This document shows positions 5,884-64,000 of a stretch of 64,000 nt of DNA, piece after piece. The stretch's first letter is position 1. The number at the start of each line of letters is the position of its first letter. The stretch comes from Tetrahymena thermophila SB210 (Eukaryota > Ciliophora > Oligohymenophorea > Hymenostomatida > Tetrahymenidae): the NCBI RefSeq assembly GCF_000189635.1, contig NW_002476361.1, positions 620,001-684,000 of the forward strand, written 5' to 3'. The translations under genes were made by a program, and so were the position numbers. Under the pieces are notes generated by a model that saw only the letters and a list, made by a program, of their open reading frames with translations, was not told the origin of the DNA and made no database searches.

Positions 5884-8800
5884 ATGGAAACCTAAAAAAG
5901 AAAATCTAAAAAGTTAGCAGTTTATTTAAAATAATTTTATGCTCAAGATATTTACAGGTTAATCCATTGCTATCCTAGAAACAACTTATGTTTCACACCA
6001 TTGATACTTTTGAAATAAATTCAAATACTTTTTTTATCAGTACAAAAGCAAATGTCTTAGATAATCAATTCAGATAGCCATCTTTACTACTTTAATTAAT
6101 ACTAAGTCTTTGGATTTACATCAAACAACTATTTTTTAATTCAGGCCATTTATGCTTTAACTTTGGTAAATGTTATGGTACTGTTTTTTCTTTTAGGATA
6201 TTTAATATACTCTTTGATGAAATCATTTTAAATAAGCCATTCAACATAGAATTTAATAAATTTAAGTAAAATTTATCAGGTAAAGGAGGATCATAATGAA
6301 TAATAAAATTTCGTTAATCTTGCATTTTCGTTCTTTATCACAATTTACTAATATTTAATATTCGTTCCCTCAATCATTCTAGGCTTATATGCTGCAGAAG
6401 TAAGTTATATGGCTTATCTATTGGTACTTTTATCTATCATCCTAAGTATATTTTTGCTCTCTTTATTAATTATTTTTATAATAACCTATTAAAACATGTT
6501 TAAATGAATATTTTAATTAATATTACAAAATTAGATACTGTTATTTCAGACCTTGATTATAATTATGCAATACAATCTATAGACTATTTAGCAAGACCAT
6601 ATTCCAGGATTTAGTTTATATTTGCTTCAGTTATTCAGATCTCTCTTTTTATTTTAAAATCATAGATTTCAAAATGCTAGATATTGATAACATTCATTCA
6701 TTTTTTGTTAAGTCTTATTATTTAGTTGATTTTTTCGCCATATCATAATCAGATAGCTTAATTTATAAATTTATTTGGCCATTTAAGTATACTTTGTTCA
6801 ACTATTACATTATAGATTGCAGTCACTTTTAAGGTGCCTGATAAGTTGATTTGCTTTGTTTTAATGTGTCTCTTACCACTTAGTTTTAAAATAACTTAGT
6901 TATTGATGATAAATAGTTATGGAAAACTTTATGACGAATTATTGATGATATTATAACAGAAATCAAAACAATTTAATAATTTTGATTAAATAATTAGATT
7001 ATTTCTTATAATCAATTATGATAGTCAAAAAAAGAAAGAATAATTTGAGATGATGTAACTTAATTTAATTGTTAATGCAAAAGTAAATTTAAATGATGGA
7101 TTTAATTAAGGTGATTAATTTAATTAATCCTTTGAGCGAATGACACAAAATAATTTTAGACTAAATGCAGGACTTCTTTCTAATTCTGAGTAAAATTAAT
7201 TTTTTACAATGTATTTTTTCAGAATTTTTATTTGCTTAAAATAGACAAAAATTAATTAAGAAAAATATTTAAGATATTCTCAGAGAACAGTTTTAAAAGG
7301 CAATAGAGCTGAAGAGATTCCAGAAAAAATATTATTTAAATGATTTAATACATTTATTTGTCTTTTTTGTGGAGATTTCTGAATCATATAGAATGTATTT
7401 GCTTTAATAATTGCAAGTTTTTAAAGAAAGTCATTTGTCATTAAAAGAAGCTTAATAATTTTATTCTGTTTACCATATTTTCTTAAAAAGAAGGGCAACA
7501 ATTAGAAAAATGTTAGGTACTTAAAACCCATTTGACCATTCTTATTTAGAAATGATTACCTTTGAAGACAATATTGAGAAGACAGAAAATTTGCTTGTAT
7601 AAACTTTAAACGAAAAGCTAGAAATATTAGAAATTATGAAAAAAAAAGAGGTTCACGCAAAAGAGCTAGTTATTAAAATAGGAAATATGCTTAAAAACAA
7701 AAAACAAATAAAAAAATATTTAACTTCATTATATTAAATAAATGATAAAAATGCTCACCTTTTAAATCTGATTTATCTTTATTTAGAATGCTTGGCATTT
7801 TCTTCATCAGAAATAAACCTCAAGAGGATAAATAGGGAACAATAAAATGAGCAACTGAAGAAGAAAAATCGAAATGTAAGTAGTGATACATAAAGTATTT
7901 CTATTAATTTGAATAGATTTGATAATTAAAATTGTGTTGTTTTCGCATAGTACATTGATCCTATGAATTTAGTTATTAAAAATGTGTCATCAAATTTCAA
8001 AGATATTTTTAATTTGAATAATAATCAAGAGATAATAGGCAACAATATTCAAAAATTAATACCGAAAGTATTCTAATAAAATCATTGTGAGTATATAGAG
8101 AGGTATTTACTAGAAGATCTTTCTTTTAATTAAGATTAATTAACCTTTTTGACAGAAAGATAAGAATTTAAAAGTAAAAAAATTGATTATAATTTTGTTG
8201 AAACCAAGAGAAATTTAAAATTTAAATAATGTAGGATGAATTCTTAAATCATTTTTATTTAATTAAATTAAATACTCATAAAACCAGTAAGAATTGATGT
8301 AAGAACTAATTCCTTTTAAGAGGATTAACAATTTGGACTCACAGCTAAAATTTAATGTTTTAATAATTAAAAGGAATACATTCTTTTTAATGAAAATAGC
8401 CTTGAGTGTATAGGTTTAACAAAAAATGTGCACAATATTTTTTTTCCTGATTGTTAGTTGCTTTAATAAATAAACATCAAGAAAGTATTACCGTTTTTAG
8501 TTGAAGCTACCTAAACAATAAATGAGGAATCACAAAAATAATCAATAGAAAAATAAATAATTTTTTAAAATTTAAATGAAAAAATGAGATAAGTATTAAA
8601 CGAAAAATATAATAAAAAGAACAAAAAAAATAAAAATACTAAAATAAAATGTATTGTAATCTAAACAAACTAAGCTTTTTTCAATATAAGCTAATATCAA
8701 GGATCGACTAAGAACTAGAAAAGAAAAGAATTTTTTTAAAAAAGCACAACGTTTAGTTATTAAAAAAGTTAATTAAATTCTTACATGTTCTTTTAAATTG

Positions 8801-11800
8801 AGTTTAGCTTCCACAAAATAGCTTATAGAGATATTAAAAATATCAGTTATATCTAAATAGAAAAAATTAATTAAATTAATCCAGATGATTAAGCATGTGC
8901 ATTGTTTAATAAGCTTAAAAACCCCTAAATGTAACAAATTTACGAGCTTTTTTTCACTGACGCTTCTGAATTAAAAAAAATAATTTAAAACCTTGAAATT
9001 GTTGTAACAAATTAAAAAACTTATTTGAATAAATAATTTTCTTCTTTAAAAGCAACAAATGTTTCAAGTTAGATTTATCAACCTAAAATAGTTACAGCTT
9101 AATAAATTTCTGAAAAATCTTTAAAAAATGATACATCGCTTTATGAAAAGAATGAAAACATATTACTTAATGATCGTAATAATAAACTATACTCAGAATA
9201 AAATCAAAACGAGTGCCAGAGTACAAAAGATAAAAATGAAAATATTAATAATCAATTACTAGAAAGTATTTTTTAAGACAAAACAAATTAAAATCTAACT
9301 GAAAATAGTTGCAATAAAATTTAATAAAATGAATTTATATTATCTAATTAATCACCAAGCATAGCAAATAATCTTTATCCTCAAAGTAGATTAGAAATGA
9401 AATAAAATTAAGCTTAAATCACAGCTTAAACATAAATGCCTTTAAAGAACACTTTCATAAATAATGCTACTTAATTTAATAATTCGATAAGCTCCTATTC
9501 TTAAATAAAGAATCAAAGTATTTAGAGTTTTATAGAAACCAACGAAGAAAATGTATTTAATAAAAATGTTAACTAAGATCAAAAACCTAAATTTTAAACT
9601 TAAAATTATTAACCTTAGTCTTTTAGCAGTGCTTTAAAACTTTTCCAAAATAGCATCATTAATTATAGCAAAAATTAAATTAGCATCTAAGATTAAGAAC
9701 TTAACTACTATAGCTTTCCTACTAGTAGATAGGATTTTACAATAAAGAATTATGATATACCCACTTAAATTTATGAAAAAGAATCTGAAAGATTCAATGA
9801 ATCTTTAACTTTTCCTCAAAAAAATGTTTCAATTTTAGAAGAACATAAAAAATATAATTAAAAATTATAACATGATTAAGAATCTACAAATTCGTAATAG
9901 TCAGCTTATTTATCTTCAAAAAAATAAATTTTAAAATAAATGAGTGATTAATCTACTCTAAAATCAATAAAAGTTATCTATTTTATAGGCATTTTGTGCT
10001 CTGTTACAATTATTTTAATGACTTGGATATAATATATAATACTTAAGTAAAAAATTTAGGATTCCCATTTAGACTACTAAGTATTTGTTTGGCCTATAAC
10101 ATATATCTCTAAGTTAAGTTAGCTACTTAAATATCAAAACACAATTTATCTTGTTTAGTATTGCCAAGATTTACAATTCAGCAGTAACTTGTAAAAATAG
10201 CAATTCTAATAAGAATCACAAAATAATTTGAACCAAGTTTATAAGTCTTTAATTTAAATGGCTGGGTATATGGACAGAGCTAACTCAGATAGAAAAGTCT
10301 TTTAATTGCTATAGTAAAATTAAATAAACATGAAAATTGCTCAATATTATAACACTAGTTTGTTAAGTAACACCTCTTCAATACCATCTTTACCAATGTA
10401 TACCTAATATTTAACTACTCTGCAGCATGGAATGATTTTATAGTTTTAAAGCATATTTCGCATAGTGAATAATTAAGGTAACGGTAGATCCATATATTAC
10501 CTAATAGCTAACTAGCTCTAAGAAATTAATTTACTTTAAAATGTTTAAAACTAAATGCTTAAATACTAATAAAATTAGCAATAATAGATCGAAGATGAAT
10601 TGTCTATTTAAATGATTGTGATTATTGTAATAAATGCATTTTGCGTAGTAATAATAATTCCCCTTTATAATAGCATTTAAAAGCAAAGAGATAATATTTT
10701 AAAGCTTATTTCTACTTTTTCAGTTTAGAAAATTGATTAGCAGATAAAACAGATTGAAATTTCTTATCAAAATTACAAATGCTAAATTACTTAGACTGTC
10801 AAATAGAATATCAAAATGGTGAAAAAAATATCTTTAATATAAAAAACTTAAGTTGAAAATGAGCACATAAAAAAAAATAGACTTAGCAAAATCACTCTCT
10901 TACCCAAATATAATCTTAAAATAAATATCATTTTCATAGCTATCTATTTACTTATAATTTGTTTACCAATAATTAATAAGCAAATCATCTAAGGTTACTT
11001 AACGAATGCTACTTTAGATCTCCAAACCATGAGTAAAATTATTTTTAGTTCGCAATTAAATTTTTTGAAATAACTAAAAGTGATGTACTGAAAATTAATT
11101 GATTGCTATTTAAAATGTAAGGTTTCATTAAATTTTTAATCTTTAGAATTTTTGCAGTCATGAATGTCTCTAAATTATATTTATATTTAAATAACTCACT
11201 TTGCTATTAATATTTTAAAAAATTATAATTTTTAAATTTTCTCTTAGTATTGGATTTAAAAAACGATTAAATAAAATATTAAAGCAACATGAATGTCTCC
11301 AATTATATTTATATTTAAATAACTCACTTTGCTATTAATATTTTAAAAAATTATAATTTTTAAATTTTCTCTTAGAATTTGATTTAAAAAACGATTAAAT
11401 AAAATATTAAAGCAACTAAATATAATTTCATTACATCCATCCCTAATTTTTATTTTTTAAATTTTATAAATAATATTCTTTATTACATTTTGTAAAAGTA
11501 AAAATTAAAGTTTTTTTTTTTGTAATTTATAAGTGAAAGTCTATGAATTAAGGTCTTATTTATTAGATAACCTAGCTATAAATATAAGCATATTAGTTAT
11601 GATAGTCAATCCGTCTTTATTACCGATGCCTCCAAATATATACTTTGATTATGTTAATAGCTTAAATTTATAATAGCAAGAGAAGATGGAAAATATTTAA
11701 TGGGTAGTTAACTCTTAATATTAGAATAAAAGGTATAAATATATATATAAATAAATAAATAAGAAAATTAATTTTAAAAAAATGAATTAATCTAAAAAGG

Positions 11801-12367
11801 TTCAATTAAGATTTATATGATGACTTCTTTTTTGCTGCTTTTGAATAAAATTTGTGTGAAACGTTTTAAAAATATCCTTAATTTAATAACAATTCTACTC
11901 TATTTAACAATTCAATTTGTTCAAATAGCTATCAAGGATTTCTTTCTCAAGGTATTTAAATAGCATATTAAAAAGCTTTAGCAATATTTCCTGATTTATA
12001 TTACTTGTACACATTACCTAGTACTACTTAAAGATAATCTAAAATTAGATATTTCTTATCGAATTTTAATGTTTCTGATTACATAAGATATACAGAATTA
12101 TTAGATAGTACTATTATAAGTTTAAATTAATTCATAATAACCTAAAATAATGAATACTTTGACTAGATATTATTAATTTAAAGTATTCTAATATATTCCT
12201 AGACATTTATAACAGTCTTTGTCTTTCTAATAAGCTGGATGATATTTGGCTATAAACTAAATAAATCCTTAGAATAAACTAAAAAGTATCTATAAATAGT
12301 AAATATAGATACTCTCTTAGAGAATAATTATGTATTAATGTATATATAAAAAAATAAAACAATATGA
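5884..12367 (+). CDS. gene 0: diverged TmcB-like PAS membrane protein, five exons
   Basis: The model is join(5884..6445, 6535..7189, 7245..11032, 11534..11732, 11800..12367), 1,923 residues, TAA/TAG read as Gln, TGA stop at 12365-12367. The ATG precedes a conserved opening (YAQDIYRLIHCYPRNN) matching IYRLVHLFPRNN in its six neighbours. The PAS domain is near residues 636-705 (CVVFAQY, NVSSNFKDIF, IIGNNIQKLIP). A second PAS-like module follows (RIDVRTNSFQ, EYILFNEN, GLTKNVHNIFFP). A very Asn/Gln-rich linker precedes the C-terminal membrane block, which starts near residue 1317. Three introns sit at the same positions and phases as in the neighbours. A fourth, 55-bp intron (7190-7244) is unique to this gene and is needed to keep frame. 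Exon 4 (199 bp) is the same length in every complete paralogue. It is clearly the outlier of the array. Probable role: membrane-bound sensor. Confidence 0.8.
7190..7244 (+). other. 55-bp intron found only in gene 0
   Basis: It begins GTAAAATTAA and ends TTAAAATAG. Without removing it the frame hits TGA at about 7348. Removing it gives SEQKLIKKNIQDILREQF, which aligns with ELKLVEKNIMKLLKD in the paralogues. The other copies have no intron here. Confidence 0.7.
11033..11533 (+). other. enlarged intron of gene 0 (501 bp)
   Basis: This occupies the position of the 124-142-bp intron 2 of the neighbouring genes, phase 1, beginning GTAAAATTAT and ending TTTATAAG. The extra length comes largely from a direct duplication inside it. 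Confidence 0.75.
11159..11416 (+). repeat. direct tandem duplication, two units of about 129 bp, inside an intron
   Basis: Unit 1 is 11159-11287 and unit 2 is 11288-11416. Both begin CATGAATGTCTC and end AAATATTAAAGCAA. Only a few differences are visible (CTCTAAATT versus CTCCAATT; AGTATTGG versus AGAATTTG), so the duplication is recent. Confidence 0.9.
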
Positions 12368-14502: not shown

Positions 14503-17500
14503 ATGAATAAATAAAGTAATAAATAATTTTAATTTGCGGAGTTACTAAAACTCTATTATACTGAGGAGATATATAGATTGGTTCACTTGTTTCCTAGAAA
14601 TAATCCAGCTTTTTAAACATTAATAGTTTTAAAGTACTTCCTATTATTTTAATTTTGTCTGTCAACTCAATTTTAAGAAACAACCGGTTACGATTTTAAA
14701 TTAAATTTCATAATACAGACTGGACTATTTAAGTATTTAAAAAATAATGCTAATAATCTCATTTACGCCTTACTATTTGTTAATGGAATGCTATTGATAT
14801 ACATAATATTTGCACTTTTTAGATTCATGCACTTGAAATTTAGGATGATGAAGAAAGTGAACAAGAATTATAATTAGGAAATTTAGATGAAATTAGAAGA
14901 GTCTATATATGAATAAAGCAGCTGCTTAGACTAATTATTTTCATTGATGATTACTTTATAACAGAATATTATTCATTTTCCAAGTGTTATTTTAGGTTTT
15001 AATAACTTAAATAATAATAGTGTCTCTTATGCTCTTTTGTCTATTGCAATCTTACTGAGTAACTTAATGATTAATTAATTTTCTGTATGAGTTATATGCT
15101 TTACTACTTAATTAAATAAATTCCAATTTAAGCAAAGAAAAATAAATAAATGTTTTACTTTTACTTTCGAAATTAATTTAACAAAATTTTTATTTATTCA
15201 TATAGATGTTATCACTAGTGACACAGACTATAACTATGAAATTAAACTTAAAGATTACTTAGCAAAACCTTTTAATATCTTAAATTTTTTATTTAAGATC
15301 TTAGTAGAAGTTTTTATTATAGCAGCTATAGTTTACACACCAGAAGGTTAAAACTCTATACTATCTTGCTATTTTCTTATAAATGGTTTGCTTTCTTATT
15401 TTTACTCTTACTATTATGACAATTTTTCATAACTAATAAACCTGTTTACTCATTTAGCCCTATTTTGTATGAGTACAACTCTCTAAATCTATATTTCAAA
15501 TAATATTCCTAGTTAATTGTTAAGTTACCTTTTTATGATTTACATTCCTTTAAGCTATAAAATAGCTTCTATAATAGTTGAAAGAGATTATTAGAATTAA
15601 TAAAATAGCTTTCAGGAAATATATTAAGAAATATAAAATAATGATAAAAACTTTGATAGAATTTTAAGATTAAATATTTTTCAAAATATTGAGAACTCAA
15701 AGCAAAATGAGAAAAAATACTTAAAATTTTTAAATTTAATTACTAATAATAATATATCAAAGCAAAAAAAGTTTATTAATTCATACAAAGAAACTTATGG
15801 ACTTGATTAAAAATTCTAAAAGAATGAATAAATTTTTGAAAGTAATCATACTCAAGTATCAACTTAGCTAAAAAGTCAATAAAATAGCTTGTAATCTTCA
15901 TTATTTGAAGATATTTCTGAATTAAAACTGGTAGAAAAAAATATAATGAAATTATTGAAAGATTACTTTTTGTAAATTTCAAACAACAAATTAAGAATCA
16001 AATAAAATGGAACTTAGATTCTTCAAAGTGTATTTATATTTTTGATAGAAGTAAGCGAGTCATATAGAATATATTTTCTTACTTATTTATAATTGATAAA
16101 AAGCAAGAATTTATCTCTAAAGTAGAAATAAATATTTAAATCTATACATAGTATATTTTTAAAGAAAAGAGCTTTAGTAAGAAAGAGAATGGGAAAGACA
16201 AATCCATTTGAGAGCTCTTACTTACAAGTCATAACTTTTGAAAAAAAACTGGAAAAATCCTATTCCTTATTTTGCTAGACTATTAACTTAAAATTATAAA
16301 TACTAAGCATGATGAAGCAAAAGCATATTGTTGCTACAAAGTTAATTTCAAAAATTGAAACTATGCAAAGTTAAATAACTTAATTGAAGGAGAATTTAAA
16401 TTATTTAATTTAATTAAATGATGATAGCTTAGATCTTTTAAATTTACAAGCCCTATTTCTGGAAAATTTGAGTTTTTCAGAAAAAGATATAAACTTACTA
16501 CAAGTCAATAAATACAAAAAAAAAAACAATAACTTAAAATATTTAAACAGGCAAAATGAAAATGGCGTATTAAGTAGTATGATTAACAGTGATAAATTTG
16601 ATGAAAAAACTTGTATAATTTTTGCAAGTTACAAAGATACTGAAACCTTAACAATAAATCAAGTTTCTTCTAATTTTTCTAATTTATTTTGCTTTACAAG
16701 TAGAGACCATATCTATGATAAAAATATAGAATCTATTATACCTCTTGCCTTTCATAGTGTACATAAATTTTATATAAAACAATATTTAGAAGATTCTATA
16801 ACCTGTGATATTTATTCAAATGATACAAATCAGCAATAAGAATAAAATGAATAAGATAATGAAAATGACGATAATTTACTAACTCCAATTAATTAGCGAT
16901 AAGGTTACTAATTTAATTAATCCAAATACTTATCAGAGAATTAAACTGGAATGAAAAATAAAAACTATTAATTATAAAACTGTAAAATGAATTAATAGAT
17001 AATATTTGCATCTCTAAACTAAATGTTTATTTTACCTATTAAAATAGATATTAAAACAAATGAATACAAAGAAAATGGAACATTTGGATTGGTAGCTAAA
17101 ATAAAACAAATAAATGAAGAATACTAATATATTCTATTCAATGAAACAGATCTAAGTGTTATTGGTCTCACTCAATAAATGCATGAAATATTCTTTCCTA
17201 ATTGTAATAGTCTCTAAAAAATTAATATGAGATCAATTTTCCCCTTTTTAATTGGTACTTAAAATAAAACAAAAATTGAAGATTCACATATTTAAAATAA
17301 CGAAATGATTTGCAATACTACTAATACAAAAAAATAGTTTCATGTGAATTTAACAGATGATATGTAGTATATCCTTAGAGGATAGTTAAAAAATAAATTA
17401 AAAATTAAAAACAAATTCTCATTTATAATTATATAGTAAGCAGATGTAACAAACAACGCTCTAAACACTACTTATAGAAGTGTAAATAGATTAAATAAAT

Positions 17501-20500
17501 CCAAACCATAATAAGAAATTTCATCATATAGTTTTAATTATGTAGAACTATCTGTTCGAAAAATAAAGTATCATAGAGTAAATAATATAAGTTATGTTGA
17601 AATAGTAAAAATAAAATAGCTTAATCCAGCTAGTTAAGCTCAAATAATCCTTCAAGAAATAACAAACATAAAAAAATAATATATTTATTCTTAATTTTTT
17701 GAGCATCCAAGCTAGCTTTAAAATATAATCTCAGATTTAGAATTAAATCAAAATGTTAATAGCAACTTATAATTTAATAGCTTTTACTCTTAGCTTCAAT
17801 ATAGCTGTAGAGATTTTAATTAAGGAAACTAGTTACTTCAAATAAAAGAAAATGATACTCCTATTGATTTTTATAAATAATAATAACTACTAAAAACTTT
17901 AGGTGATGAAAGTACTAATCTTGAATAAATTAAATTAGTGTCAAATAGAATAGAAAATGATGATTTTAATTGTTAATCAGATGAAACTAGTAGGTTTACC
18001 TTGAACTAATTCAGAGAATAAAAAGCATTATAAAACTTGAATGAAAAATTACAACTTAATTAGCTGTAATAGATATAGAGTAATATTGCTTAAGAACAAA
18101 CATTTATTTAGTCATTTTAGGAAAACTAAATAAGCAACAGCGATTTATAAATTAAAGAAGATTTTGCTAATAAAAATAATCATTAAAACCCTATAGAAGT
18201 TTAACTAAACAAAAGCAACACTAGTGCCTTACCTAGTCATTAAAAATCAAATAAAATAATAAACATAGAATTAACATCTCCAAATAATAGCTTCAATATG
18301 AATATTAATTCTAATCAGCAATCCTTAGCTCATCTATCAGATTAGAATTTAGATGTTTAATAAGTAAAATCTCATGAATTTATTTCAAATAAAATTAAAG
18401 AAAATATTTATTTAGATATAGAAGCCAGTAATGATGAAATTAGTAAAAAATACAATAATACAATCAATCCTTTAAAAATTAGTAAAAATCCAAACAAAAT
18501 TATTAAGTCAAATAGCTTCAGAAAAAGTTAAATTACCAATACATTAAATGATGCTCTAAATGATAGAGAGAAAAAAAAATTAATGAAAAACTCTTATTAG
18601 CATAATAATATTAATTATATATAAAAAGAAAAGAAAAAGGAGCAAGTTCAAGATATCATTTACGATATTGCTTCTAGCACCTCTCAAAATTCATATTATA
18701 CTCCAGTCAAGAGATAGCTAACACAAATTATGGAAGATTCATCAATCCTAAAAGTTATAAAACTAATAAAAATTATTGGAGTTATTTGTTTCGCTGTCAT
18801 GGTAGGAATCACTTGGTTACAATTCAACTCGATGTATCAGTATATGTCATCAGCAAATTAAGATTACGAAGATTTTGGCTGGCCTACAACTTATTCTTCT
18901 TCTCTAAGTGATATCCTTAAAAATAAAAATATTTAATTTCTTACTAATTATACAAGAATGAATTTTACAGATATTCACTAAAAGTAACTTTTTTATGATC
19001 AAATACAATAAAATATGGAGAATACTTTCTCAGATGTATTAAGATTGTTAGCTTTATTGGAAACTGCTAGCACAAATAGAGAAGTATTTAATAGAGTAAT
19101 AGGGAATAAAATGAATTTTTACTTTGGAAAATTGTATAACACATAATTGCTTAACTCAACTACATCTAATAGTATTGATTTAGTATTTTAAAATTATAGC
19201 AGTACCTTGCAATATAGCATAACTTTAAGTGTTTAAAATATCTTCCGTTATATCAATAACCTGGGTAATGGAAGGCCTGAGTTTTACTTAATATAAAATT
19301 AATTAGAGGCAATTTCTAAATTAGAATATTTACAATAGTAAATAAAAGAAGACCAATCAGAAAAATAGGAATATATTCAAGATGAACTATATATCATAAT
19401 CATGATTTTAGTTTTAATTAACACATTTTGTGTTATGATAATAATTCCATTATATTTTTACATTTAAAAAGAAAGAGATTCTATAATTTACCTATTTACT
19501 ACATTTCCAATTTAAAAGTTAGATAATTTGATCAAAAAAATATAAGATTCCTACTTTAGCATAAACACTAGCTCGATTTATTAGAATTAAAACAACTAAA
19601 TAATTTCTGATACACTTTTATAATTAGAAGGCATTGATAATGTAAATAATACAAGAAAACATACTATTAGCTCTATCACAAGTCTCCCTAGATACAATAA
19701 AAAATTATATTTTGCTTGTTTCCTTATTTATTCATTAATAATATGCTATCCAATAATTGTTAAAATCCTAAGTTCTGATTATTTAACAAAGTCTGCTCTA
19801 GATCTTTAAACACTATGTAATTTATTTATAAGCATTCTTTAATTTTATACATTCAGTTAAACAAATAATTTAAATTTTAAATATTTAAATAAAATAAAAA
19901 TCTATTATCTTTTATTATCAAAAAAATAAATAATATTTATTTATTATAATTTTAAAAGCGAAAGTCTACTAGCTAAGATCATATCTATTGTAGAATATTG
20001 CAATGCATTTTAATGTTTTATTAATGAAGGCAAGACCAAGATTCAAGCCTATGAAACCTGAAATTTATTATGATTATTTATAAACACTAATTGAATAGTA
20101 GGAAGATATAAGTAAGGATATCTAATGGATAATAAATACATAGTATTCAGATTAAAGGTATTTTATTTATTAAAATCTACAGATTAATTTCATTATAATT
20201 ATTAATTAATTAAATAATGGACATAAATTTTTATTTTTATTAATTAAATTTTAATTTTTTAGTTTTATTTAAATATTTATATATATAAATATATAAATAG
20301 ATTTAATTAAGACTTGTACGATAACTTCTTTTTTTCTGCTTTTAAAACAAATTTGTGTGAAGATTTTAAGAACTATCCTTAATTCAATACTAATCCTAAA
20401 AAAGTAAATGTTGATTTATGCACTTCACCACAATAAAAGTTCTTATAATAAGGTTTCTCAGTTGCTTATAAAAGTCTTTTTAGTATGTTTACTGAACTAT

Positions 20501-20871
20501 ACAACATATATATAATACCAGATGATAAAGTATCAAGATAATAAGTACTATAAGTATTAAAAAATCTTGATATTTAGGAATACACGGCTTTTACTGAGTT
20601 TTTAGATGAAACAATTATCAGTTTAAATTAATTTATTTTAACTTAAAATAATATTTTTTATCATTAGTTAGAATTATAATTGATAGGTTTGATAGCTTTT
20701 TAAATGGTATTAATGCTTTTAGTCTTCTTTTTTGGTTGGATCACTTTCAGTAATTATTTGAATTACTAGCTACACAAAACAAAAAAGTATCTATAAATTC
20801 TAGACATTAATACTTTAATTGAAAATCAATACATTTAAAATTATATTAAAAAAAATTTAGTTGCTTAATGA
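14503..20871 (+). CDS. gene 1: TmcB-like PAS membrane sensor protein, four exons
   Basis: The model is join(14503..15058, 15206..19816, 19959..20157, 20301..20871), 1,978 residues, ending TAA TGA at 20866-20871. The reading frame was followed through exon 2 without a TGA. An N-terminal membrane block (about residues 36-313) opens MNKQSNKQFQFAELLKLYYT. A helical TPR-like segment includes SESYRIYF and KRMGKTNPF. The PAS domain is near 650-720 (KTCIIFASY, VSSNFSNLFCFTSRD, NIESIIPLAF, YIKQYLED). The second PAS-like module has GTFGLVAKIKQINEEYQYIL. An Asn/Gln-rich linker leads to the last membrane segments. The first external loop (RMNFTDIHQKQLFYDQ) is most like that of gene 3. Expected role is sensing at a membrane with a cytosolic PAS signalling domain; ligand and output are unknown. 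Confidence 0.85.
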
Positions 20872-29300: not shown

Positions 29301-29666
29301 ATATATATAATACCAGATGACAGAGTATCAAGATAATAAGTAAGATAAATATTAAGAAATCTTGATATTTAGGAATACACTGCTTTTACTGAATTTTTAG
29401 ATGAAACAATTATCAGTTTAAATTAATTCATTTTAACTTAAAATAATATTTTTTATAGTTAAATAGAATTATAATTGATTGCTTTGATAGTTTTTTAAAT
29501 GGTATTAATGCTTTTAGTATTCTTTTTTGGTTGGATTACTTTCAGTAATTATTTGAATTACTAGCTACACAAAACAAAAAAGTATCTATAAATTCTAGAC
29601 ATTAATACTTTAATTGAAAATCAATACATTTAAAATTATATTAAAAAAAATTTAGTTGTTTAATGA
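23308..29666 (+). CDS. gene 2: TmcB-like PAS membrane sensor protein, four exons
   Basis: The model is join(23308..23863, 24022..28650, 28775..28973, 29096..29666), 1,984 residues, TGA at 29664-29666. Predicted membrane segments lie near residues 36-53, 86-106, about 145-186 (one or two), 210-229, 236-255, 262-283 and 291-313, then near 1374-1400, 1587-1612, 1692-1714 and 1922-1945. The PAS domain (about 650-720) reads CIIFASYRD, VSSNFYNLFGFTSRD and NIESIIPLAF. The second PAS-like module (about 780-870) contains GTFGLVAKIKQ, YILFNETDLSVIGLT and IHEIFFPNC. The two predicted external loops cover about 1400-1586 and 1715-1920. The ATG was chosen because it opens the conserved QFQFTELLKLYYTEE and lies 57 bp after the palindrome. 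Closest relative in the window: gene 5. Confidence 0.85.
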
Positions 29667-38200: not shown

Positions 38201-38563
38201 TATATAATACCAGATGATAAAATATCAAGATAGAAAGTAAGATTAATATTAAAAAATCTTGATATTTAGGAATTCACTGCTTTTACTGAGTTTTTAGATG
38301 AAACAACTATCAGTTTAAATTAATTCGTTTTAACTTAAAATAATACTTTTTATAATTAGTTAGAATTATAATTGATTGGTTTGATAGTTTTTTAAATGGT
38401 ATTAATGCTTTTAGTCTTCATTTTTGGTTGGATTACTTTCAGTAATTATTTGAATTACTAGCTACACAAAACAAAAAAGTATCTATAAATTCTAGACATT
38501 AATACTTTAATTGAAAATCAATACATTTAAAATTATATTTAAAAAAATTTAGTTGTTTAATGA
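32261..38563 (+). CDS. gene 3: TmcB-like PAS membrane sensor protein, four exons
   Basis: The model is join(32261..32816, 32975..37540, 37680..37878, 37993..38563), 1,963 residues, TGA at 38561-38563. It is the shortest of the five complete close paralogues because the Asn/Gln-rich linker has lost about 25 residues near 36000-36030, where the others carry a stretch with IELVSP or IELTSP. The PAS domain is intact (CIIFASYND, VSSNFYNLFCFTSRD, NIESIIPLAF). The N-terminus reads FQFAGLLKLYYTEEIYRLVH. The external loop carries RMNFTDIHQKQFFYD, almost the same as in gene 1. I followed the frame from the PAS domain to the end of exon 2 without meeting a TGA. Intron sites match genes 1, 2, 4 and 5. 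Confidence 0.85.
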
Positions 38564-46700: not shown

Positions 46701-47129
46701 TTCTTATAAGAAGGCTTCTAAGTGGCTTACGAAAGTCTTTTTAACCTATTTTCTGATTTATACAACTCATATAAAATAACAGACAATATAAAATTAATTG
46801 AATAAATAAGAAAAATATTAGAAAATATTGATATTTAGGAATTTACTGCTTTTTCTGAGTTTTTAGATGAAACAGTTATTAGTTTAAATCAATTTGTTTT
46901 AACTTAAAACAATATTTTTTATAATCAGATAAAATTATTATTGATTATTTTGATAGCTTTTTAAATATTGTTGATGCTTTTAATTTTCTTTTTGGGTTAG
47001 ATTACTTTCAGTAATTATTTGAATCAATAGCTACACAAAACAAAAAGGTATCTAAAAATTATTGATGCTAATACTTTGATTGAAAATCAATATATATAAA
47101 ATTATATTAAAAAAAATATTGTTGTATGA
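40769..47129 (+). CDS. gene 4: TmcB-like PAS membrane sensor protein, four exons
   Basis: The model is join(40769..41330, 41476..46107, 46240..46438, 46562..47129), 1,986 residues, TGA at 47127-47129. Exon 1 is two codons longer than in genes 1-3 and 5 (NNDKFTNN between the first two membrane segments). The last codons differ: IVV then TGA, where the others end LVVQ or LVAQ. The frame was read from the helical segment to the end of exon 2 without a TGA. The PAS domain has CIIFASYND, VSSNFSNLFCFTSRD and NIESIIPLAF. Ahead of the C-terminal membrane block is KNKNIKKQQVQDI, like gene 6. The first external loop (NINFRDSNQKQLFYNK) is also nearer to gene 6 than to genes 1 or 2. Confidence 0.85.
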
Positions 47130-49467: not shown

Positions 49468-52400
49468 ATGAATAATTAAAAAAACAAATAATTTTAATTT
49501 ACAGAGTTGCTAAAACTCTATTATACAGAGGAGATGTATAGATTGGTTCATTTGTTTCCTAGAAATAATCCTACCTTTTTAACATTAATAGTTTTAAAGT
49601 ACTTTCTATTATTTTAATTTTCTCTGTCAACTCAACTTTAAGAAACAACAGGTTATGATTTTAAAATAAATTTCATAATACAGACTGGACTATTTAAATA
49701 TTTAAAAAATAATATTAACAATATCATTTACTTCATGATATTTATCAATGGAATGCTATTGATATACATGATATTTGCACTTTTTAGATTCATGCACTTG
49801 TAATTTAGGATGATCAAGAAATTGAACAAGAATTATAATTAGGAAATTTAGATGAAATTAGAAGAGTCTATATATGAATAAAGCAGCTACTTAGACTAAT
49901 TATTTTCATTGATGATTACTTTATAATAGAATATTATACACTTCCCTAGTATTATATTAGCTTTTAATAATTTAAATAACAATAGTGCTTCTTATGCTCT
50001 TTTGTCTATTGCAATCTTACTGAGTACATTAATTGAATTAATTATTATATGCTTTGATTAATTAATTAATTCCAATTCTAATTTAAATCAAGAAAATGAA
50101 ACATATTTTTATTTTTAATTTCTAATTATTAATTAATATAATACATTTTTTATTTATTATTTTTAGATACAATCACTTGTGACACAGACTATAACTATGA
50201 AATTAAACTTAAAGACTACTTAGCAAAACCTTTTAATATCTTAAATTTTTTATTTAAGATCTTAGTCGAAGTTTTTATTATAGCAGCATTAGTCTATATG
50301 CCAGAAGGCTAAAATTCTTTACTGTCTTGCTATTTTCTTATAAATGGTTTGCTTTCTTATTTTTTCTCTTACTATTATGATAACTTTTCATAAATAATAA
50401 ACCTGTTTACTCATTTTGCCTTATTTTTTATGAGTATAACTCTATAAATCTATATTTCATATAGTATTCCTAGCTAATTGTTAAGTTTCCTTTTTATGAT
50501 TTACATACCTTTAAGCTATAAAATAGCTTCTATAATAGTTGAAAGAGATTATTAGAATTAATAAAATAGCTTTCAGGAACTGCATTAAGAAATGTAAAAT
50601 GATGATAAAAACTTTGATAGAATCTTAAGATTAAACATTTTTGACAATATCGAGAACTCAAAGCAAAATGAGAAAAAATATTTAAAATTTTTTAATTTAA
50701 TTACTAATAATTATATGTCAAAGTAAAATTAATTTATTAATTCATACAAAGAAACTAATGGACTTGATTAAAAATTATAAAATAATGAGTAAATCTTTGA
50801 AAGTAATCATACTCAAGCATCAACTTAACTTACAAATTAATAAATTAGCAAGTAAACTCGCTTGTTTGAAGATATTTCTGAATTAAAATTGATAGAAAAA
50901 AATGTCATAATATTATTGAAAGATTAATTTTTGAAATCTTCAAACAGCAAATTAAGAAGCAAATAAAATGGTACGAAGATTCTTCAAAGCGTATTTATAT
51001 TTTTGATAGAAATGAGTGAGTCATACAGAATATATTTCCTTATGTATTTACAATTAATTAAAAGCAAGAATTTATCTCTGAAGTAGAAATAAATATTTAA
51101 ATCTATACACAGTATATTTTTAAAAAAGAGAGCTGTCATAAGAAAGAGAATGGGAAAGACAAATCCATTTGATAGTTCTTACTTATAAGTCATAAATTTT
51201 GAAAATAAACTGGAGAAGTCCTATTCTTTATTTCGCTAAACTATTAAAATAAAATTATAAGTACTAAGCATGATGAAACAAAAACATATAGTAGCTACAG
51301 AGTTAACTTCTAAAATTGAAAGTATGCAAAGTTAAATAGCTTAATTAAAGGTGAATTTAAATTATTTAATATAATTAAATGATGATAGCTTGGATCTTTT
51401 AAATTTACAAGCTCTGTTTCTGGAAAATTTGAGCTTTTCAGAAAAAGATATAAATTTAATACAAACCAATAAATACAAAAAAAAAAGCTATAACTAAAAA
51501 TATTTAAACAGACAAAATGAAGATGAAATATTAAGTTCTATGATTAACAGTGATAAATTTGATGAAAAAACTTGTATAATTTTTGCAAGTTACAAAGATA
51601 CTGAAACTTTAACAATAAGTCAAGTTTCTTCTAATTTTTCTAATTTATTTTGCTTTACAAGCAGAGACCATATCTATGATAAAAATATTGAATCTATTAT
51701 ACCTCTTGCATTTCAGAGTGTACATAAAATGTATATAAAACAATATTTAGAAGATTCAATAACATGTGACATTTCAAATAATACAGATCAGCAATTAGAA
51801 TAAAGTAAATAAGACCATGAAAATGACGAAAATGTAGTAACTACAATTAATTTGAGATAAGGTTACTAATTTAATTAACCTAAATACTTATCAGAAAATT
51901 AAAGTGGAACAAAAAATTAAAACTATGAATTATAAAATTGTAAAATGAATTAATAGATAATATTTGCTTCTCTCAACTAAATGTTCATCTTACCTATTAA
52001 AATAGATATTAGAACAAACGAATACAAAGAAAATGGAACATTTGGATTGGTAGCTAAAATAAAACAAATAAATGAAGAATACTAATATATTCTATTCAAT
52101 GAGACAGATTTAAGTGTTATTGGTCTCACTCAATAAATGCACGAAATATTCTTTCCTAATTGTAACAATCTCTAAAAAATTAATTTGAGATAAATTTTCC
52201 CCTTTTTGATTGGAACTTAAAATAAAACAAAAATTGAAGATTCACATATTTAATATAAAGAAACGACTTGCAACAATAATAATACAAAAAAATAGTTACA
52301 TGTAAATTTAACAGATGATATGCAGTATATCCTTAAAGGATAGTTATAAAATAAATTAAAAATTAAAAACAAATTCTCATTTATAATTATAAAGTAGGCA

Positions 52401-55400
52401 GATGAAACAAACAACGCTCTAAACACTCCTTATAGAAGTACTAAAATATTAAATAAAGCTAAATCATATAAAGATATTTTATCATATAGTTTTAATTATG
52501 TAGAATTATTTGTTCGAAAAATAAAATATCATGGAGTAAATAATGTAAGTTATGTTGAAATAGTAAAAATAAAATAGCTTAATCCATCTAGTTAAGCTCA
52601 AATCATCCTTCAAGAAATAACTAATGTAAAAAAATAATAGATTTATTCTTAATTATTTGAACATCCAAGCTAGCTTTAAAATATAATATCAGATTTAGAA
52701 TTAAATCAAAATATTAATAGCTACTTATAATTTAATAGCTTTTACACTTAGCTTCAATATAGCTCTAGAAATTTGAATTAAGGTAATTAATTACTATAAA
52801 TAAAATAAAATGATACTCCTATTGACTTTACATAAGCTGATTTTTAAAAAGTATAATAACTACTTGGTGATGAAAGTACAAATATTGAATAAATTAAAAT
52901 GGCCTCAAATAGAATAGAATACAATGATTTTAATTGTTTATCAGATGCAACTAGTAGATTTACCTTAAACTAATTCAGAGAATAAAAAGCATTATAAAAC
53001 TTGAATGAAAAACTGCAACTTAATTAGTTGTCTTAGCTGCAAAGTAATATTGCATAAGAACAAGTATTTATTTAGTCATTTTAGGAAAACTAAATAAGCA
53101 GCAGCGATTTATAAATGAAAGTGGATTTTGCTAATAAATAATTGGATCATTAGAACCTTACAGAAGATTAACTAAACAAAAGCAGCACTTGTACCATACC
53201 TATTCCTTAAAAATCAAATAAAGCAATTAACATAGAATTAGTCTCTCCAAATAACAGTTTCTACATGAAAAATTGTTCTAATCAATAATCATTAGCTCAA
53301 CTATCAGATTAGAATTTAGATGCTCTACAAATAAAATCACATGAATTTATTTTAAATAAAATTAAAGAAAATGCTTATTTAGATGTAGAAAACAGTAATG
53401 AAGAAATTAATAAAAAATGTAATAATGCAATCATTCCTTTAAAAATTAGCATAAACCCTAGCAAAATTTTTAAGTCAAATAGCTTTAGAAAAAATAAAAT
53501 CAACAATACATTAAATGATGATTTAAATGACAAAGAGAAAAAAAAATTGATGAGAAACTCTTATTAGTACAATAATATTAACTAGATATAAAAACAAAAA
53601 AAAAAGGAGTAAGTTCAAGATATGATTTACGATATTGCTTCTAGTACCTCCCAAAATTCATATTATACTCCAGTCAAGAGATAACTAACACAAATTATGG
53701 AAGATTCATCAACCCTAAAAGTTATAAAACTAATAAAAATTATTGGAATCATTTGTTTAGCTGTCATGGTAGGCATCACTTGGTTACAATTTAACTCAAT
53801 GAATGAGTTTCTGTTGGAAGCTAATTAAGACTACAAAGATTTTGGTTGGCCAACAACTTATTCTTGTTCTCTAAGTGATATCCTTAAATATAAAAATATT
53901 TAATTTCTTACAAATTATACAAGAGTAGTTTTCACTGACAGTAACTAAAAGGAATTATTTTATAATCAGACACAATAAAATATGGAGAATACTTTCTCAA
54001 ATGTATTAAGATTGTTAGTTTAAATGGAAAATGCTAACTCAAATAGAGAAGTATTTAATAGAGTAATAGAAAATAAAATGAATTTTTACTTTGGGTAATT
54101 ATACAATCCTGCATAGCTTAACTCAACTACATCTGACAGTACTGATTTAGTATATTAAAATTATACTAGTACCTTAGAATATAGCGTAATTTTAAATGTT
54201 CAAAATATCTTCCGTTATATCAACAACATGGGTAATGGAAGGCCTGAGTATTACTTAATATAAAATTAATTAGAAGCAATTTCTTAATTAAAAGATTTAT
54301 AAGAGCATATAAAAGAAAGCCAATCATAAAAATAGGAATATATTCAAGATTAACTCTATATCATAATCATGATTTTAGTTTTAATTAACACATGTTGCGT
54401 TGCCATCATAATACCATTATATCTTTATATTTAAAAAGAAAGAGACTCTATAATTTACCTATTTACTACATTTCCAATTTAAAAGTTAGATAATTTGATC
54501 AAAAAAATATAAAATTCCTACTTTAGCACAAACACTAGCTCAATTTATTAGAATTAAAACAACTAAATAATTATAGATACACTTTTATAATTATAAGACA
54601 TCGATAATGAAAAAAATATAAGAAAGCATAGTATTAGCTCAATCACAAGTCTCCCTAGATATAATAAAAAATTATATTTTGCTTGTTTCCTTATTTATTC
54701 ATTAATAATATGCTATCCAATAATTGTTCAAATCTTAAGTGCTGATTATTTAACAAAATCTGCTTTAGATCTTTAAACAATATGTAATTAACTAATTAAT
54801 TATAAACTTTTTAAAATTTTTTTCATTCAATTAAAACAAATATGTAAATAGAAATTTAAAATATATTTATTTTTTATAAAAAAATAATATTATTTATTTA
54901 ATAATTTTAAAAGCTAAAGTCTACTAGCTAAGATCATACCTATTGTAGAATATTGCGATGCATTTTAATGTTTTATTAATGAAGGCAAGACCAAGATTCA
55001 AGCCTATGAAGCCTGAAATTTATTATGATTATTTATATACACTACTTTAATAATAGGAAGATATAAGTTAGGATATATAATGGATAATAAACTCATAGTA
55101 TTCAGATTAAAGGTATTTTATTTTATTCAAACCTACAGATTAGTTTCATTAAAATAAATGATCAATTTAACAAAAAACATAAATATTTATTTTTATTATT
55201 TTTAATTTTTTAGCTTTATTTAAATTAAAAAATAGATTTAACTAAGACTTATACGATAACTTCTTTTTTTCTGCGTTTAAAACAAATTTGTGCGAAGATT
55301 TTAAAAATTACCCTTAGTTCAATACTAATCCTAAAAAATTAAATGTTGATATATGTGATTCAACCCAATAAAAGTTCTTATAATAAGGTTTCTCAGTAGC

Positions 55401-55806
55401 TTATAAAAGTCTTTTTAGCATGTTTACTGAACTGTACAATATATATATAATACCAGACGACAAATTATCAAGATAATAAGTAAGATAAATATTAAGAAAT
55501 CTTGATATTTAGGAATACACTGCTTTTATTGAGTTTTTAGATGAAACAATTATCAGTTTAAATTAATTCGTTTTAACTTAAAATAATACTTTTTATAGTT
55601 AAATATAATTATAATTGATTGGTTTGATAGTTTTTTAAATGGTATTAATGCTTTTAGTATTCTTTTTTGGTTGGATTACTTTCAGTAATTATTTGAATTG
55701 CTAGCTACACAAAACAAAAAAGTATCTATAAATACTAGACATTAATACTTTAATTGAAAATCAATACATTTAAAATTATATTAAAAAAAATTTAGTTGCT
55801 TAATGA
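49468..55806 (+). CDS. gene 5: TmcB-like PAS membrane sensor protein, four exons
   Basis: The model is join(49468..50023, 50167..54783, 54914..55112, 55236..55806), 1,980 residues, TGA at 55804-55806. Exon lengths sum to a multiple of three, and the parts I translated are open. It is the near twin of gene 2. Shared residues include the linker IDFTQADFQKVQQLLGDEST, the external loop RVVFTDSNQ followed by ELFYNQTQQNMENTF, and NTCCVAIIIPLYLYIQ in the membrane segment after it. The PAS domain (CIIFASYKD, TISQVSSNFSNLFCFTSRD) is closer to genes 1 and 4, which suggests local gene conversion. The last 571-bp exon begins RFNQDLYDNFFFSAFKTNLC, almost as in gene 2. Confidence 0.85.
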
Positions 55807-58895: not shown

Positions 58896-58909
58896 ATATT
58901 TATAAATAT
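58896..58909. promoter_or_regulatory. 14-bp palindrome, gene 6 promoter candidate
   Basis: Exact ATATTTATAAATAT, 56 bp between its end and the ATG. The sequence just after it is changed (AGAAAAAAAGTT), so the palindrome is better kept than its right flank. Confidence 0.5.
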
Positions 58910-58965
58910 AGAAAAAAAGTTAAGGTAAATTGTAATTTATTTATATTAGATAAAAGCATAATTCT

Positions 58966-61900
58966 ATGAATCAATAAAAAAATAAATAATTCTAATTTAC
59001 TGAGATGTTAAAACTCTATTATACGGAGGAGATATATAGATTGGTTCACTTGTTTCCTAGAAATAATCCTGTCTTTTTGGTTTTAATATTTTTAAAATAT
59101 ATGCTCTTATTTTAATTTTCTCTGTCAACTCAATTTTAAGAAACCAAAGATAATGATTTTAAAACCAATTTAATGATACATATTGGAATATTTAAATATT
59201 TAAAGAATAATATTAATAATCTCATTTACTCCTTGCTATTTATTAATGGAATGCTATTGGTATATTTGATATTTGCGCTTTTTAGATTCATGCACTTGAA
59301 ATTTAGGATGATGAGTAAAATGAATAAGAATTACAATTAGGAAATGAAGATGCAATTAGAAGAATCTATTTATTAATAAAGCAGTTGCTTGGACTAATTT
59401 TTTTCATTGATGATTACAATTTAACAGAACATTTTTCACTTTCCTAGTCTTATTTTAGGTTTTAATAATTTAAATAACAATAGTGTCTCCTATGCTCTTT
59501 TGTCTGTTTCAATCATTATGAGTAAATTAATAATTAATTGATTTTCTGTATTAATTATGCGCTTTACTTAATTAATTCAATTCTAATTTCAAAAAAGAAA
59601 AAGAACAAATTTCTTACTTTTTACTTTCAAATTATTAGTAAGTTAGTTATTTTAACAAAATTTTTTTAATTTACAAAGATATCATTATTTCAGATACAGA
59701 CTATAATTATGAAATTAAACTTAAAGACTACTTAGCAAAACCATTTAATATCTTAAATTTTTTATTTAAGATCTTAGTAGAAGTTTTTATAATAGCAGCA
59801 ATAGTTTATACACCAACAGGCTATAATTCTATACTCTCTTGCTATTTTATTACAAGTGGTTTATCTTCTTACTTTTTCTCTTATTATTATGACAATTTTT
59901 CATAACTAATAAACCTTTTTACTCATTTAGCCTTATTTTGTATGAGTATAACTCTGTAAGTCTATATTTCGTTTAACGTTCCTAGTTAATTGTTAAGCTA
60001 CCTTTTTATGATTTACATACCTTTAAGCTATAAAATAGCTTCTTTAATAGTTGAAAGAGATTATTAGGATTTGTAAAATAGCTTTCAAGAATTGTGTTAA
60101 GAAAAATAAAATAATGATAAAAACTTAGATAAAATTTTAAGATTAAATATTTTTGACAATATTGAAAACTCAAGGCAAAATGAGAAAAAATATTTTAAAC
60201 TATTAAATTTAATTATTAATAACTATATATCAAACCAAAATAAATTAAATAATTCATACATAGAAACTAGTAATTATGGAGAATAAAATAAGCTAAATGA
60301 TCAAATAAATAGCTAATAAACTCAATTATTTGGAGATGTTTCAAAACTAAAGTTAATAGAAAAAAATATTATTTAATTTCTGAAAGATTAATTTTTGAAA
60401 TCTTAAGACAAAAAATTCAGAAGTAAAAATAATGGAACACAGTTTCTTCGAAGCATATTTATATTTTTGATAGAAATAAGTGAGTCATATAGAATATATT
60501 TCCTTATGTACCTATAATTGATAAAACGTAAGAACTTATCTCTAAAGTAGAAATAAATATTTAAATCTATACATAGTATATTTTTAAAGAAGAGAGCTGT
60601 AGTAAGAAAGAGAATGGGAAAGGCAAATCCATTTGATAGTTCTTACTTGCAAGTCATAACTTTTGAAAACAAACTTGAAAAGTCTTATTAATTATTGCAT
60701 GAAACTATCAATTTAAAGTTATAAATATTATGCATGATGAAACAAAAGCATATAATTGCTAAATAGTTAATTACAAAAATTGAGAGTATGTAAAGTTAAA
60801 TAAATTTATTGAAAGAAAATTTGAATTATTTAATTTTACTAAATGGAGATAGTTTGGATCTTTTGAATCTGCAAGCTCTGTTTCTGGAAAATTTGAGCTT
60901 TTCTGAAAAAGATATCAATTTACTACAAGTCAACAAATATAAAAAAAAAATTTACAATTCAAAATATTTAAACAGACAAAATGAAGATGAAATGTTAAGT
61001 AGTATGATTAACAGCGATAAATTTGATGAAAAAACTTGTATAATTTTTGCAAGTTACAAAGATACTGAAACCTTAACAATAAATCAAGTTTCTTCTAATT
61101 TTTCTAATTTATTTTGCTATACAAGTAGAGACCATATCTATGATCGAAATATTGAATCTTTCATACCTCTCGCGTTTCAAAGTGTACATAAAATGTATAT
61201 AAAACAATATTTAGAAGATTCAATAACTTGTGATATTTATTCAAATAATACAGATCAGCAATTAGAATAAAATGAATAAGATAATGAAAATGTCGAAAAC
61301 GAAGTAACTCCAATTAATAAGGGATAAGGTTACTAATTTAATAAATCAAAAAACTTATCAGAGAAGTAAACTGTAACAAAAGCTTAAAACTATGAATTAT
61401 AAAATTGTAAAATGAATTAGTAGATAATATTTGCATCTCTAAACTAAATGTTCATCTTACCAATTAAAATAGATATTAGAACAAATGAATACAAAGAAAA
61501 TGGAACATTTGGATTGGTAGCTAAAATAAAACAAATAAATGAAGAATACTAATATATTCTATTTAATGAGACAGATTTAAGTGTTATTGGTCTAACTCAA
61601 TAAACGTAAGAAATATTCTTTCCTAATTGTAACAATCTCTAAAAAGTTAATTTGAGATAAGCTTTCCCCTTTTTGGTTGGTACTTAAAATAAAACAAAAA
61701 TTGAAGATTGCTAAATCTAAAATAATGAAACACCTTACAATAATACTAATACAAAAAAATAGTTTCATGTGAATATTACTGATGATGCTCAGTATATTCT
61801 TAGAGATTAATCAAAAAATCATTTAAAAATGAAAAATAAATTTTCATTTATAGTTATATAACACTCAGATGAAATAAACGATACATTAAACACTTCATAT

Positions 61901-64000
61901 AAAAGTACAAAAAGATTAAATAAAGCTAAATCATATAAAGAAATTTCATCCTATAGTTTTAATTATGTAGAATTATTTGTTAGAAAATTAAAGTACAAAG
62001 GAGTAAACAAAATAAGCTATATTGAAATAGTAAAAATAAAATAGCTTAATCCTGCCATTTAAGCTCAAATAATCCTTAAAGAAATCACAAACATAAAAAA
62101 ATAATTCTTATATACTTAACTATTTGAGAATCCAAGTTAACTTTAAAATATAATCTAAGATTTAGAATAAAATCAAAATATTAATAGCTACTTATAATTT
62201 AATAGTTTTTACTCTTAGTTTCAATATAGCTGTAGAAATTTTAATTAAGGTAATTAATTACTACAAATAAAAGAAAATGATACTCCTATTGATTTTACAT
62301 AAGCTGATTTTTAAAAAGTATAATAATTACTTGGTGATGAAAGTACAAATGTTGATTAAACTAAAATGATGCCTAATAGAATTGAATATGAAGATTAGAA
62401 TTGCTAATCAGATGAAAGTAATAGGCTGACCTTAAACTAACTCAGAGAATAAAATTCATTATAAAAGTTGAATGAAAAACTGCAACTTAATTATCTGTTT
62501 TAGCTTCAAAGAAATATTGTATAAGAGCAAGCACTTAATTAGTCAATTTAGGAAAACTAAATAAGCTACAACGATTTATAAATTGTAAATTATGGTAATT
62601 TTAATTTGAGTCTTTAAAATTTTTAAGATGATTAGATAAACAAAAACAGCGATTGTGCCTAAAGATCAAATAGAGCAATAAATATAGAATTAATTTCTCC
62701 AAATAATAGCTTCTGCATGAATATTAATTCTAATCAAATATCTTTAGCTCAGTTATCTGATTAGAATTTCAACATATAACAAATAAATTCACATCAATTT
62801 ATTGGAAATTAAACTAAAGAAAATATTAGTTTAGATGTAGAAACTAATAATTGTGAAATAAATAAAAAATGTAATAATACTATCCTTCCTTTAAAAATGA
62901 ACATAAACCCTAGCAAAATCGCTAAATCTAGTAGTTTTAGAAAAAGTAAAATCAACAATACATTAACTAATGCACTAAATGATAGAGAAAGAAAATAATT
63001 AATTAAAAACTCATATTAACATAATCATGCTAATTAGCTTTATAAAGATAAAAATATTAAAAAGTAGTAAGTTCAAGATATTATTTATGATATTGCTTCA
63101 AGCAACTCTCAAAATTCATATTATACTCCAGTCAAGAGACAATTATAAGATGTTATGGCAGACCAATCAACCTTATAAGTAATAAAATTAATAAAAATTA
63201 TTGGAGTTATTTGCTTCACTGTCATGGTATCGATCACTTGGTTATAATTTAGCTCAATGTATCAGTATCTGTCAGAAGCTAATTAAGACTACCAAGATTT
63301 TGGTTGGCCCACTGATTATTCTTCTTCTCTAAGTGATATCCTTAAATATAAAAATATTTAATATCTTACAAATTATAGAAACTTAAATTTCACAGACAAC
63401 AGCTAGTAGCAACTTTTTAAAAATAAAATACAATAAGATATGGAGGATACTTTCTCAGACGTATAAAGTTTATTAAATTAAGTAGATTTAGCCAACACAA
63501 AAAGAGATATATTTAACAGAGTAATAGACTATAAAATTACTTTTTACTTTGGGTAATTGTATGATACAACAATGCTTAGCTCAACTGCGTCTGACAATTC
63601 TGATTTAATCACTTTAAATTATAGTTCTACCTTACATTATAGTTTTCTTTTAAATGTTCAAGTTATCTACCGTTATATTAAGAACTTAGGTAATGGAAGG
63701 CCTGAGTATTACTTAATATAAAATTAATTAGAATCAGTTTCTTAATTAAAAAAATTACAAGACGATATAAAAGAAAACCAATCAGGATAATAGCAATACA
63801 TTCAAGATTAGCTCTAAATTATAATCATAATTTTAGTTTTAATTAACACATGTTGTGTTATGATCATAATACCATTATATTTTTATATTTAAAAAGAAAG
63901 AGACTCTATAATTTACCTATTTACTACATTTCCGATTTAAAAGTTAGATATTTTGATCTAAAAAATATAAAATTCCTACTTTAGCACAAACACTAGCTCA
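58966..64000 (+). CDS. gene 6: TmcB-like PAS membrane sensor protein, cut by the window edge
   Basis: The model is join(58966..59521, 59679..>64000). Exon 2 is open to the last base, about 1,625 residues. It starts MNQQKNKQFQFTEMLKLYYT. It has the longest stretch free of in-frame TAA/TAG around its PAS domain (60809-61270, LILLNGDSLDLLNLQALF to TDQQLE). That domain reads CIIFASYKD, VSSNFSNLFCYTSRD and NIESFIPLAF. Exon 2 lacks about 40 residues of the Asn/Gln-rich segment just before the PAS domain (near 60290) that genes 1-5 carry. Linker and first external loop (NLNFTDNSQQQLF) are nearest to gene 4. By comparison about 100 residues of exon 2 and two further exons should lie beyond 64000. Confidence 0.85.

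Follow-up and report, generated by a model that had tools for sequence, protein, structure and literature searches.

A Fourteen-Gene Tandem Array in Tetrahymena thermophila Encodes Giant Membrane Proteins with a Predicted TmcB-Related PAS Module

Introduction

FixL and DosP (EcDOS) are heme oxygen sensors of bacteria, built as kinase or phosphodiesterase. PMC4263535 names the PAS heme fold and Met95, with His77 appearing in the title of a reference. TmcB-type proteins are membrane proteins in which a membrane block, a helical region, a PAS domain and further membrane segments follow one another. In the genus Tetrahymena, tandem clusters of species-specific leucine-rich repeat (LRR) genes have been described (PMC6564038). 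Here we analyze a stretch of 64,000 nucleotides from Tetrahymena thermophila SB210, referred to as the window (bases 620001-684000 of the 838-kb contig NW_002476361.1, here C176, forward strand), which carries seven very large genes in tandem. Two stretches of a telomerase gene from the same genome, about 237 residues in all, match PDB chain 6d6v, the T. thermophila enzyme, without a difference, and introns are read through between and around them; this fits T. thermophila or an extremely close species. Coordinates are window positions unless C176 is named. On balance, though with some reserve, we read these genes as part of a 14-gene array encoding proteins of about 1,920-1,990 residues that form a large divergent branch of the TmcB-related PAS membrane proteins and carry a sensing PAS module.

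Results

The predicted PAS module resembles those of FixL and DosP in sequence

A profile made from 15 family sequences over the predicted PAS module gave 14 matches in the PDB at E <= 10, 13 of them to DosP or FixL, with a best E of 0.0024. The 13 go back to a few proteins in different versions; they indicate the kind of domain and are not independent. The remaining match was to Bye1 (E 1.3). A profile of five divergent members gave 11 matches, seven to FixL (best E 9e-4), one to yddU, which we take to be DosP, and three to unrelated proteins. A PAS domain is thus predicted for the family, as seen by the family profile.

FixL and DosP are the nearest solved structures by sequence. One His in the module does not vary in any of the 17 family rows, copies 1-7 of the window among them, or in the 21 rows of an alignment that includes six TmcB-type proteins. 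Its counterparts, in the motifs 'RHDSYI' of FixL and 'AHPEYI' of DosP, are the heme ligands of these two proteins. Heme binding by the module is on these grounds a candidate function, and a doubtful one. In copy 2 a long glutamine/asparagine (Q/N)-rich insertion follows the invariant His (His705). Unlike FixL and DosP, the array proteins show no kinase or phosphodiesterase domain in the Pfam scans of the copies.

Relationship to TmcB-type proteins

To compare the array with TmcB-type proteins we used the genome of 101 Mb in 445 contigs. The TPR_TmcB profile (PF25474) has 21 matches in it, 20 of them over cut-off (all 24 candidates scored), and no match on C176. The only two PAS_9 matches fall in two of the TPR_TmcB genes. 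When the PAS region of a 17-sequence family alignment was compared by HHalign with six TmcB PAS domains of the same genome, the score was 57.8 (P 1.2e-7); the best of 200 column permutations reached 21.2. With only the seven window copies P was 1.2e-4. Part of the N-terminal membrane block was likewise aligned with the TmcB membrane block, over 77 columns, with a score of 29.0 (P 3.5e-4, HHalign probability 37); the reversed control scored 14.3 and the best of 100 permutations 18.1. As judged by these comparisons, the family is related to the TmcB proteins through the PAS domain and probably also through the membrane block, in agreement with the TmcB-like assignment of an initial annotation made from the window sequence alone. 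The domain order is shared as well, and the invariant His is found in six of the six TmcB rows.

The helical region is where the two groups differ. It had been annotated as TPR-like helices, which found no support: aligned with five TPR segments from the TmcB genes of this genome it scored 16.8 in HHalign, below the best of 200 permutations (26.8), and C176 has no TPR_TmcB match. A second difference is the long insertion in the array PAS domain. No last-exon match of the family lies within 60 kb downstream of any TPR_TmcB match (by eye).

The TmcB genes of this genome are themselves candidate heme PAS proteins, from the two PAS exons searched. One had FixL as best PDB match (E 1.2e-10), with 11 of 11 matches to FixL or DosP-type proteins. 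The other matched FixL at E 1.8e-12, its 14 matches comprising seven FixL, four DosP-type, BvgS and two designed proteins.

Gene models

The window has 17-25% guanine plus cytosine (GC) per 2-kb bin. Its seven genes are direct copies lying head to tail with starts 8.5-9.5 kb apart, and 300-nt blocks recur in six or seven copies, most of them with 80-97% identity to the copy taken as reference, far beyond chance. No open frame of 250 aa or more exists in the window under the standard code. Under the ciliate code (table 6; TAA and TAG encode Q) each copy has one long frame of 1,315-1,720 aa, that of copy 7 (1,493 aa) being cut by the window end. Starts, donors and acceptors were placed by aligning the copies against each other, and the copies were then spliced (Table 1). 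Copies 2-6 have four exons each, with GT-AG introns of 114-158 nt in phases common to all. Copy 1 is divergent, about 34% identical to the other copies over exon 2, and has five exons separated by introns of 89, 55, 501 and 67 nt, the 55-nt intron being the extra one. We ruled out that copy 1 is a broken gene because the extra intron and the long intron restore an open frame. Inside the 501-nt intron is a 128-bp tandem duplication (96% matching, 11159-11416). After splicing, the six complete copies are free of stops, reproducing exactly the intact frames of 1,923-1,986 codons that had been annotated. The last exon of copy 7 lies beyond the window at C176:684671-685234.

Between the genes of the window are gaps of 2.1-3.2 kb with 16-17% GC. 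ATG frames within them reach 327 aa, a length likely by chance with a single stop codon and AT-rich DNA. Two of the longest such frames had no Pfam family above cut-off, and to this extent the window copies may be uninterrupted by other genes, as the initial annotation had it.

Table 1. Genes and segments of the array in window coordinates.
Feature	Position	Strand	Exons or invariant His codon	Codons or remarks
Copy 1	5884..12367	+	5884-6445, 6535-7189, 7245-11032, 11534-11732, 11800-12367	1923
Copy 2	14503..20871	+	14503-15058, 15206-19816, 19959-20157, 20301-20871	1978
Copy 3	23308..29666	+	23308-23863, 24022-28650, 28775-28973, 29096-29666	1984
Copy 4	32261..38563	+	32261-32816, 32975-37540, 37680-37878, 37993-38563	1963
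Copy 5	40769..47129	+	40769-41330, 41476-46107, 46240-46438, 46562-47129	1986
Copy 6	49468..55806	+	49468-50023, 50167-54783, 54914-55112, 55236-55806	1980
Copy 7	58966..64000	+	exon 1 58966-59521; exon 2 from 59679	cut by window end
PAS module, copy 1	7918..8526	+	His 8083-8085	
PAS plus PAS-like module, copy 2	16597..17277	+	His 16762-16764	residues 650-876; His is residue 705
PAS module, copy 3	25416..26021	+	His 25581-25583	
PAS module, copy 4	34366..34974	+	His 34531-34533	
PAS module, copy 5	42867..43547	+	His 43032-43034	
PAS module, copy 6	51558..52163	+	His 51723-51725	
PAS module, copy 7	61022..61702	+	His 61187-61189	
Part of N-terminal membrane block, copy 2	15208..15657	+		residues 187-336, compared with TmcB membrane block
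C-terminal part of exon 2, copy 2	18667..19812	+		hydropathy: transmembrane segment, loop 1 of about 185 aa, transmembrane segment, short linker, transmembrane segment
Last exon of copy 2	20302..20868	+		end of loop 2, last transmembrane segment, tail; query for family count

The array and the family in the genome

The seven-gene array that had been annotated stands for the window, with seven head-to-tail copies, and is part of a larger one. On C176 the array consists of 14 genes at about 593.5-728 kb, two upstream of the window, seven inside and five downstream, and the window is its middle half. Exon 2 is open in all four copies checked just downstream of the window. Just past the last array gene, a short last-exon match (69% identical, C176:727965-728051) is perhaps the remnant of a further copy.

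To count the family we searched the genome with the last exon of copy 2. With all 101 candidates scored, it has 93 matches at E <= 0.001, places of which some have been demonstrated as full genes. Many are in other tandem clusters. C176 has 14 full matches and one fragment, C178 ten and C327 six (clusters counted by eye), with smaller clusters on further contigs; the tandem clusters listed are on C178, C327, C38, C198, C276, C157 and C167. None of the 14 full matches on C176 has a TGA. Five of the ten on C178 have one each; these may be broken, or their sequence misread. A search with exon 2 of copy 2 gave at least 35 matches in the genome (best 30 of 116 candidates scored), which place the array at 593.5-727 kb on C176 and relatives, among the matches listed, on C276, C318, C383, C254, C10, C400 and C209. 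The last-exon matches on C254 and C383 have equal scores and each ends five bases from its contig end. This suggests an unmerged assembly overlap, and some of the 93 matches may be assembly duplicates.

Between the second and the third array gene lie about 18 kb, in which LRR-type repeats are found. Approximately 16 kb of this stretch were inspected (C176:608693-618692 and the first 5.9 kb of the window). LRR-type motifs (LGSALANCTNL and similar) flank and split the array: three on the + strand of the window (2892-4544), 12 on both strands of C176:608693-618692, and one in C176:728388-734387. Pfam found no LRR in two frames carrying the motifs, and the LRR label rests on the motif. Also upstream of the window copies is a 367-bp tandem repeat of 2.7 copies (2340-3349), overlapping an LRR-type motif. 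Similar to the LRR clusters of PMC6564038, our array is a tandem array of genes in the same genus, and the motifs around and within it resemble those genes. The array genes themselves belong to a different protein family, and the whole word 'PAS' does not occur in the main text of that paper.

Selection and history of the copies

The ratio of nonsynonymous to synonymous substitution (dN/dS) was calculated by the Nei-Gojobori method with table 6. Every one of the 15 pairs among copies 2-7 falls at 0.285-0.366, and these copies are under purifying selection, as the initial annotation had thought likely. Eight further chosen pairs, with copy 1 and copies beyond the window, gave 0.24-0.42; in four of them the synonymous divergence (dS) is above 1, and their values are rough. 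Constraint is among the strongest over the helical and PAS stretch (dN/dS 0.16-0.28, alignment columns 500-899), and columns 200-299 are likewise low, within the same range. It is weakest in the Q/N-rich stretch that precedes the second membrane part and in loop 1, with dN/dS of 0.43-0.55 (windows 1100-1299 and 1400-1599). The highest value of any 100-column window is 0.55, none reaching 1, and the loop 2 windows are 81-87% identical.

Copies 3 and 6 are 90% identical. In a tree in which numbering starts at the first copy of the window, the sister pairs 3+6 and 5+9 are non-adjacent while 10 and 11 are adjacent sisters, which fits the duplication of one or several genes at once. The copies probably arose by unequal exchange, sometimes of several genes together, with selection preserving their frames.

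Predicted topology

The multi-pass membrane plan of the initial annotation is borne out by hydropathy. A membrane block lies within residues 1-310, and the next 1,050 or so residues are soluble. C-terminal segments near residues 1378, 1590, 1695 and 1925 enclose two loops, about 185 and 205 residues long. Three of these four segments have flanking charges that fit loops on the outside, and the fourth is neutral. A profile of loop 1 found nothing credible in the PDB (best E 0.12) and matched no PAS, and AlphaFold2 recovered no fold for the loop-1 segment (mean predicted local distance difference test score, pLDDT, 37.4). We infer proteins with many membrane spans, a cytosolic PAS module and two loops on the other side of the membrane, and likewise a receptor role.

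Discussion

For the array proteins a sensor role appears likely. The signal sensed by the PAS module would be diffusible. A heme on the invariant His would be the simplest means, and the signal could then be oxygen, nitric oxide, carbon monoxide or redox state. A change of shape would then be passed to the membrane segments, perhaps through the long Q/N-rich insertion after the His. No catalytic output domain was recognised, and because of this the output would probably be a channel, a transport step or the docking of a partner.

Several results weigh against this reading. Pfam scans of exon 2 of all seven copies (for copy 1, the long second-exon frame only) found no PAS domain and nothing above cut-off. 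Below cut-off there were matches to unrelated families, for example one to 3-HAO in the PAS stretch of copy 2 (E 0.0021). The E-values of the family profiles against the PDB are modest and their alignments extend over no more than 34-77 profile positions. For the PAS segment, the AlphaFold2 model made from seven sequences was not usable (mean pLDDT 36.5); the low confidence for this segment and for loop 1 is probably owed to a lack of diverse sequences. Three features speak against heme in particular. At the position of the distal Arg of FixL, the array has Gln and the divergent members Lys (by eye). The array also carries an insertion of about 55-60 residues at the expected place of the F-G loop (by eye). 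The same His is moreover present in some PAS domains for which heme binding is not known. Finally, copies 2-6 share seven conserved N-glycosylation motifs, all of them outside the two loops.

Other searches with single copies were equally empty. Exons 1, 3 and 4 of copy 2 had nothing above cut-off in Pfam, copies 2 and 3 no match above cut-off in NCBIfam, and copy 2 alone no credible match in the PDB; Pfam on divergent relatives gave weak matches only (PAS_9 at E 0.17 for one). Single-copy searches alone thus returned no PAS or TmcB-like hit, and the family profiles did. The PAS plus PAS-like module of the initial annotation is in this way upheld for the family (E 0.0024 and 9e-4) while no single window copy has a Pfam PAS.

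The module might instead be a plain protein-interaction or dimerisation PAS without cofactor, with the proteins acting as scaffolds or channel-like membrane proteins and not as sensors. Consistent with this, it is far from the Pfam PAS models, of which PAS_9 matches two of 15 family members (best E 0.0055) and PAS_4 one member (E 0.088), and the loss of the FixL distal Arg and the long insertion beside the would-be pocket of the array point the same way. However, the sole invariant His of the module corresponds to the heme ligand of the nearest solved relatives, and heme PAS structures are the only PAS structures that the family profiles matched. We regard a plain PAS as a serious possibility, if an unlikely one.

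An explanation of a different kind is that the genes encode variable surface antigens or receptors for mating or self-recognition, the outer loops being the functional part and the PAS domain a relic. The tandem array with its many paralogues would suit such proteins, as would the faster evolution of the Q/N-rich stretch and loop 1. That no 100-column window comes to a dN/dS of 1 and that loop 2 is 81-87% identical argue against it, and we find this explanation improbable. Recent amplification could also have kept decaying duplicates without function. The near identity of copies 3 and 6, which indicates recent duplication, and the TGA codons in some last exons elsewhere would agree with decay, but all frames in the window are open, copy 1 among them at 34% identity, and dN/dS is about 0.3 in all 15 pairs. 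Decay is disfavored and very improbable.

Returning to a sensing PAS module, the array and its genomic relatives could be amplified eukaryotic heme-PAS sensors of gas or redox state set in giant multi-pass membrane proteins. The distal residue and the F-G loop would have been remodelled between branches, and one cell would have many tuned FixL-like versions. This wider proposal is tentative and we hold it more in doubt than in favor.

Around ninety last-exon places in a model ciliate, in tandem arrays of up to fourteen, are related to window copies that Pfam does not recognise. We found no description of the family in the literature on TmcB, tiny macrocysts, Tetrahymena PAS families, or FixL and Tetrahymena, among the matches listed and with most subscription papers outside this scope. 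A link to heme PAS domains would give this large uncharacterised family its first testable function and a direct way to ask whether unicellular eukaryotes rely on PAS sensing of the FixL kind on a large scale. With copies spanning 34-90% identity, the array lends itself to comparing substitutions around the sensor pocket with what the proteins do.

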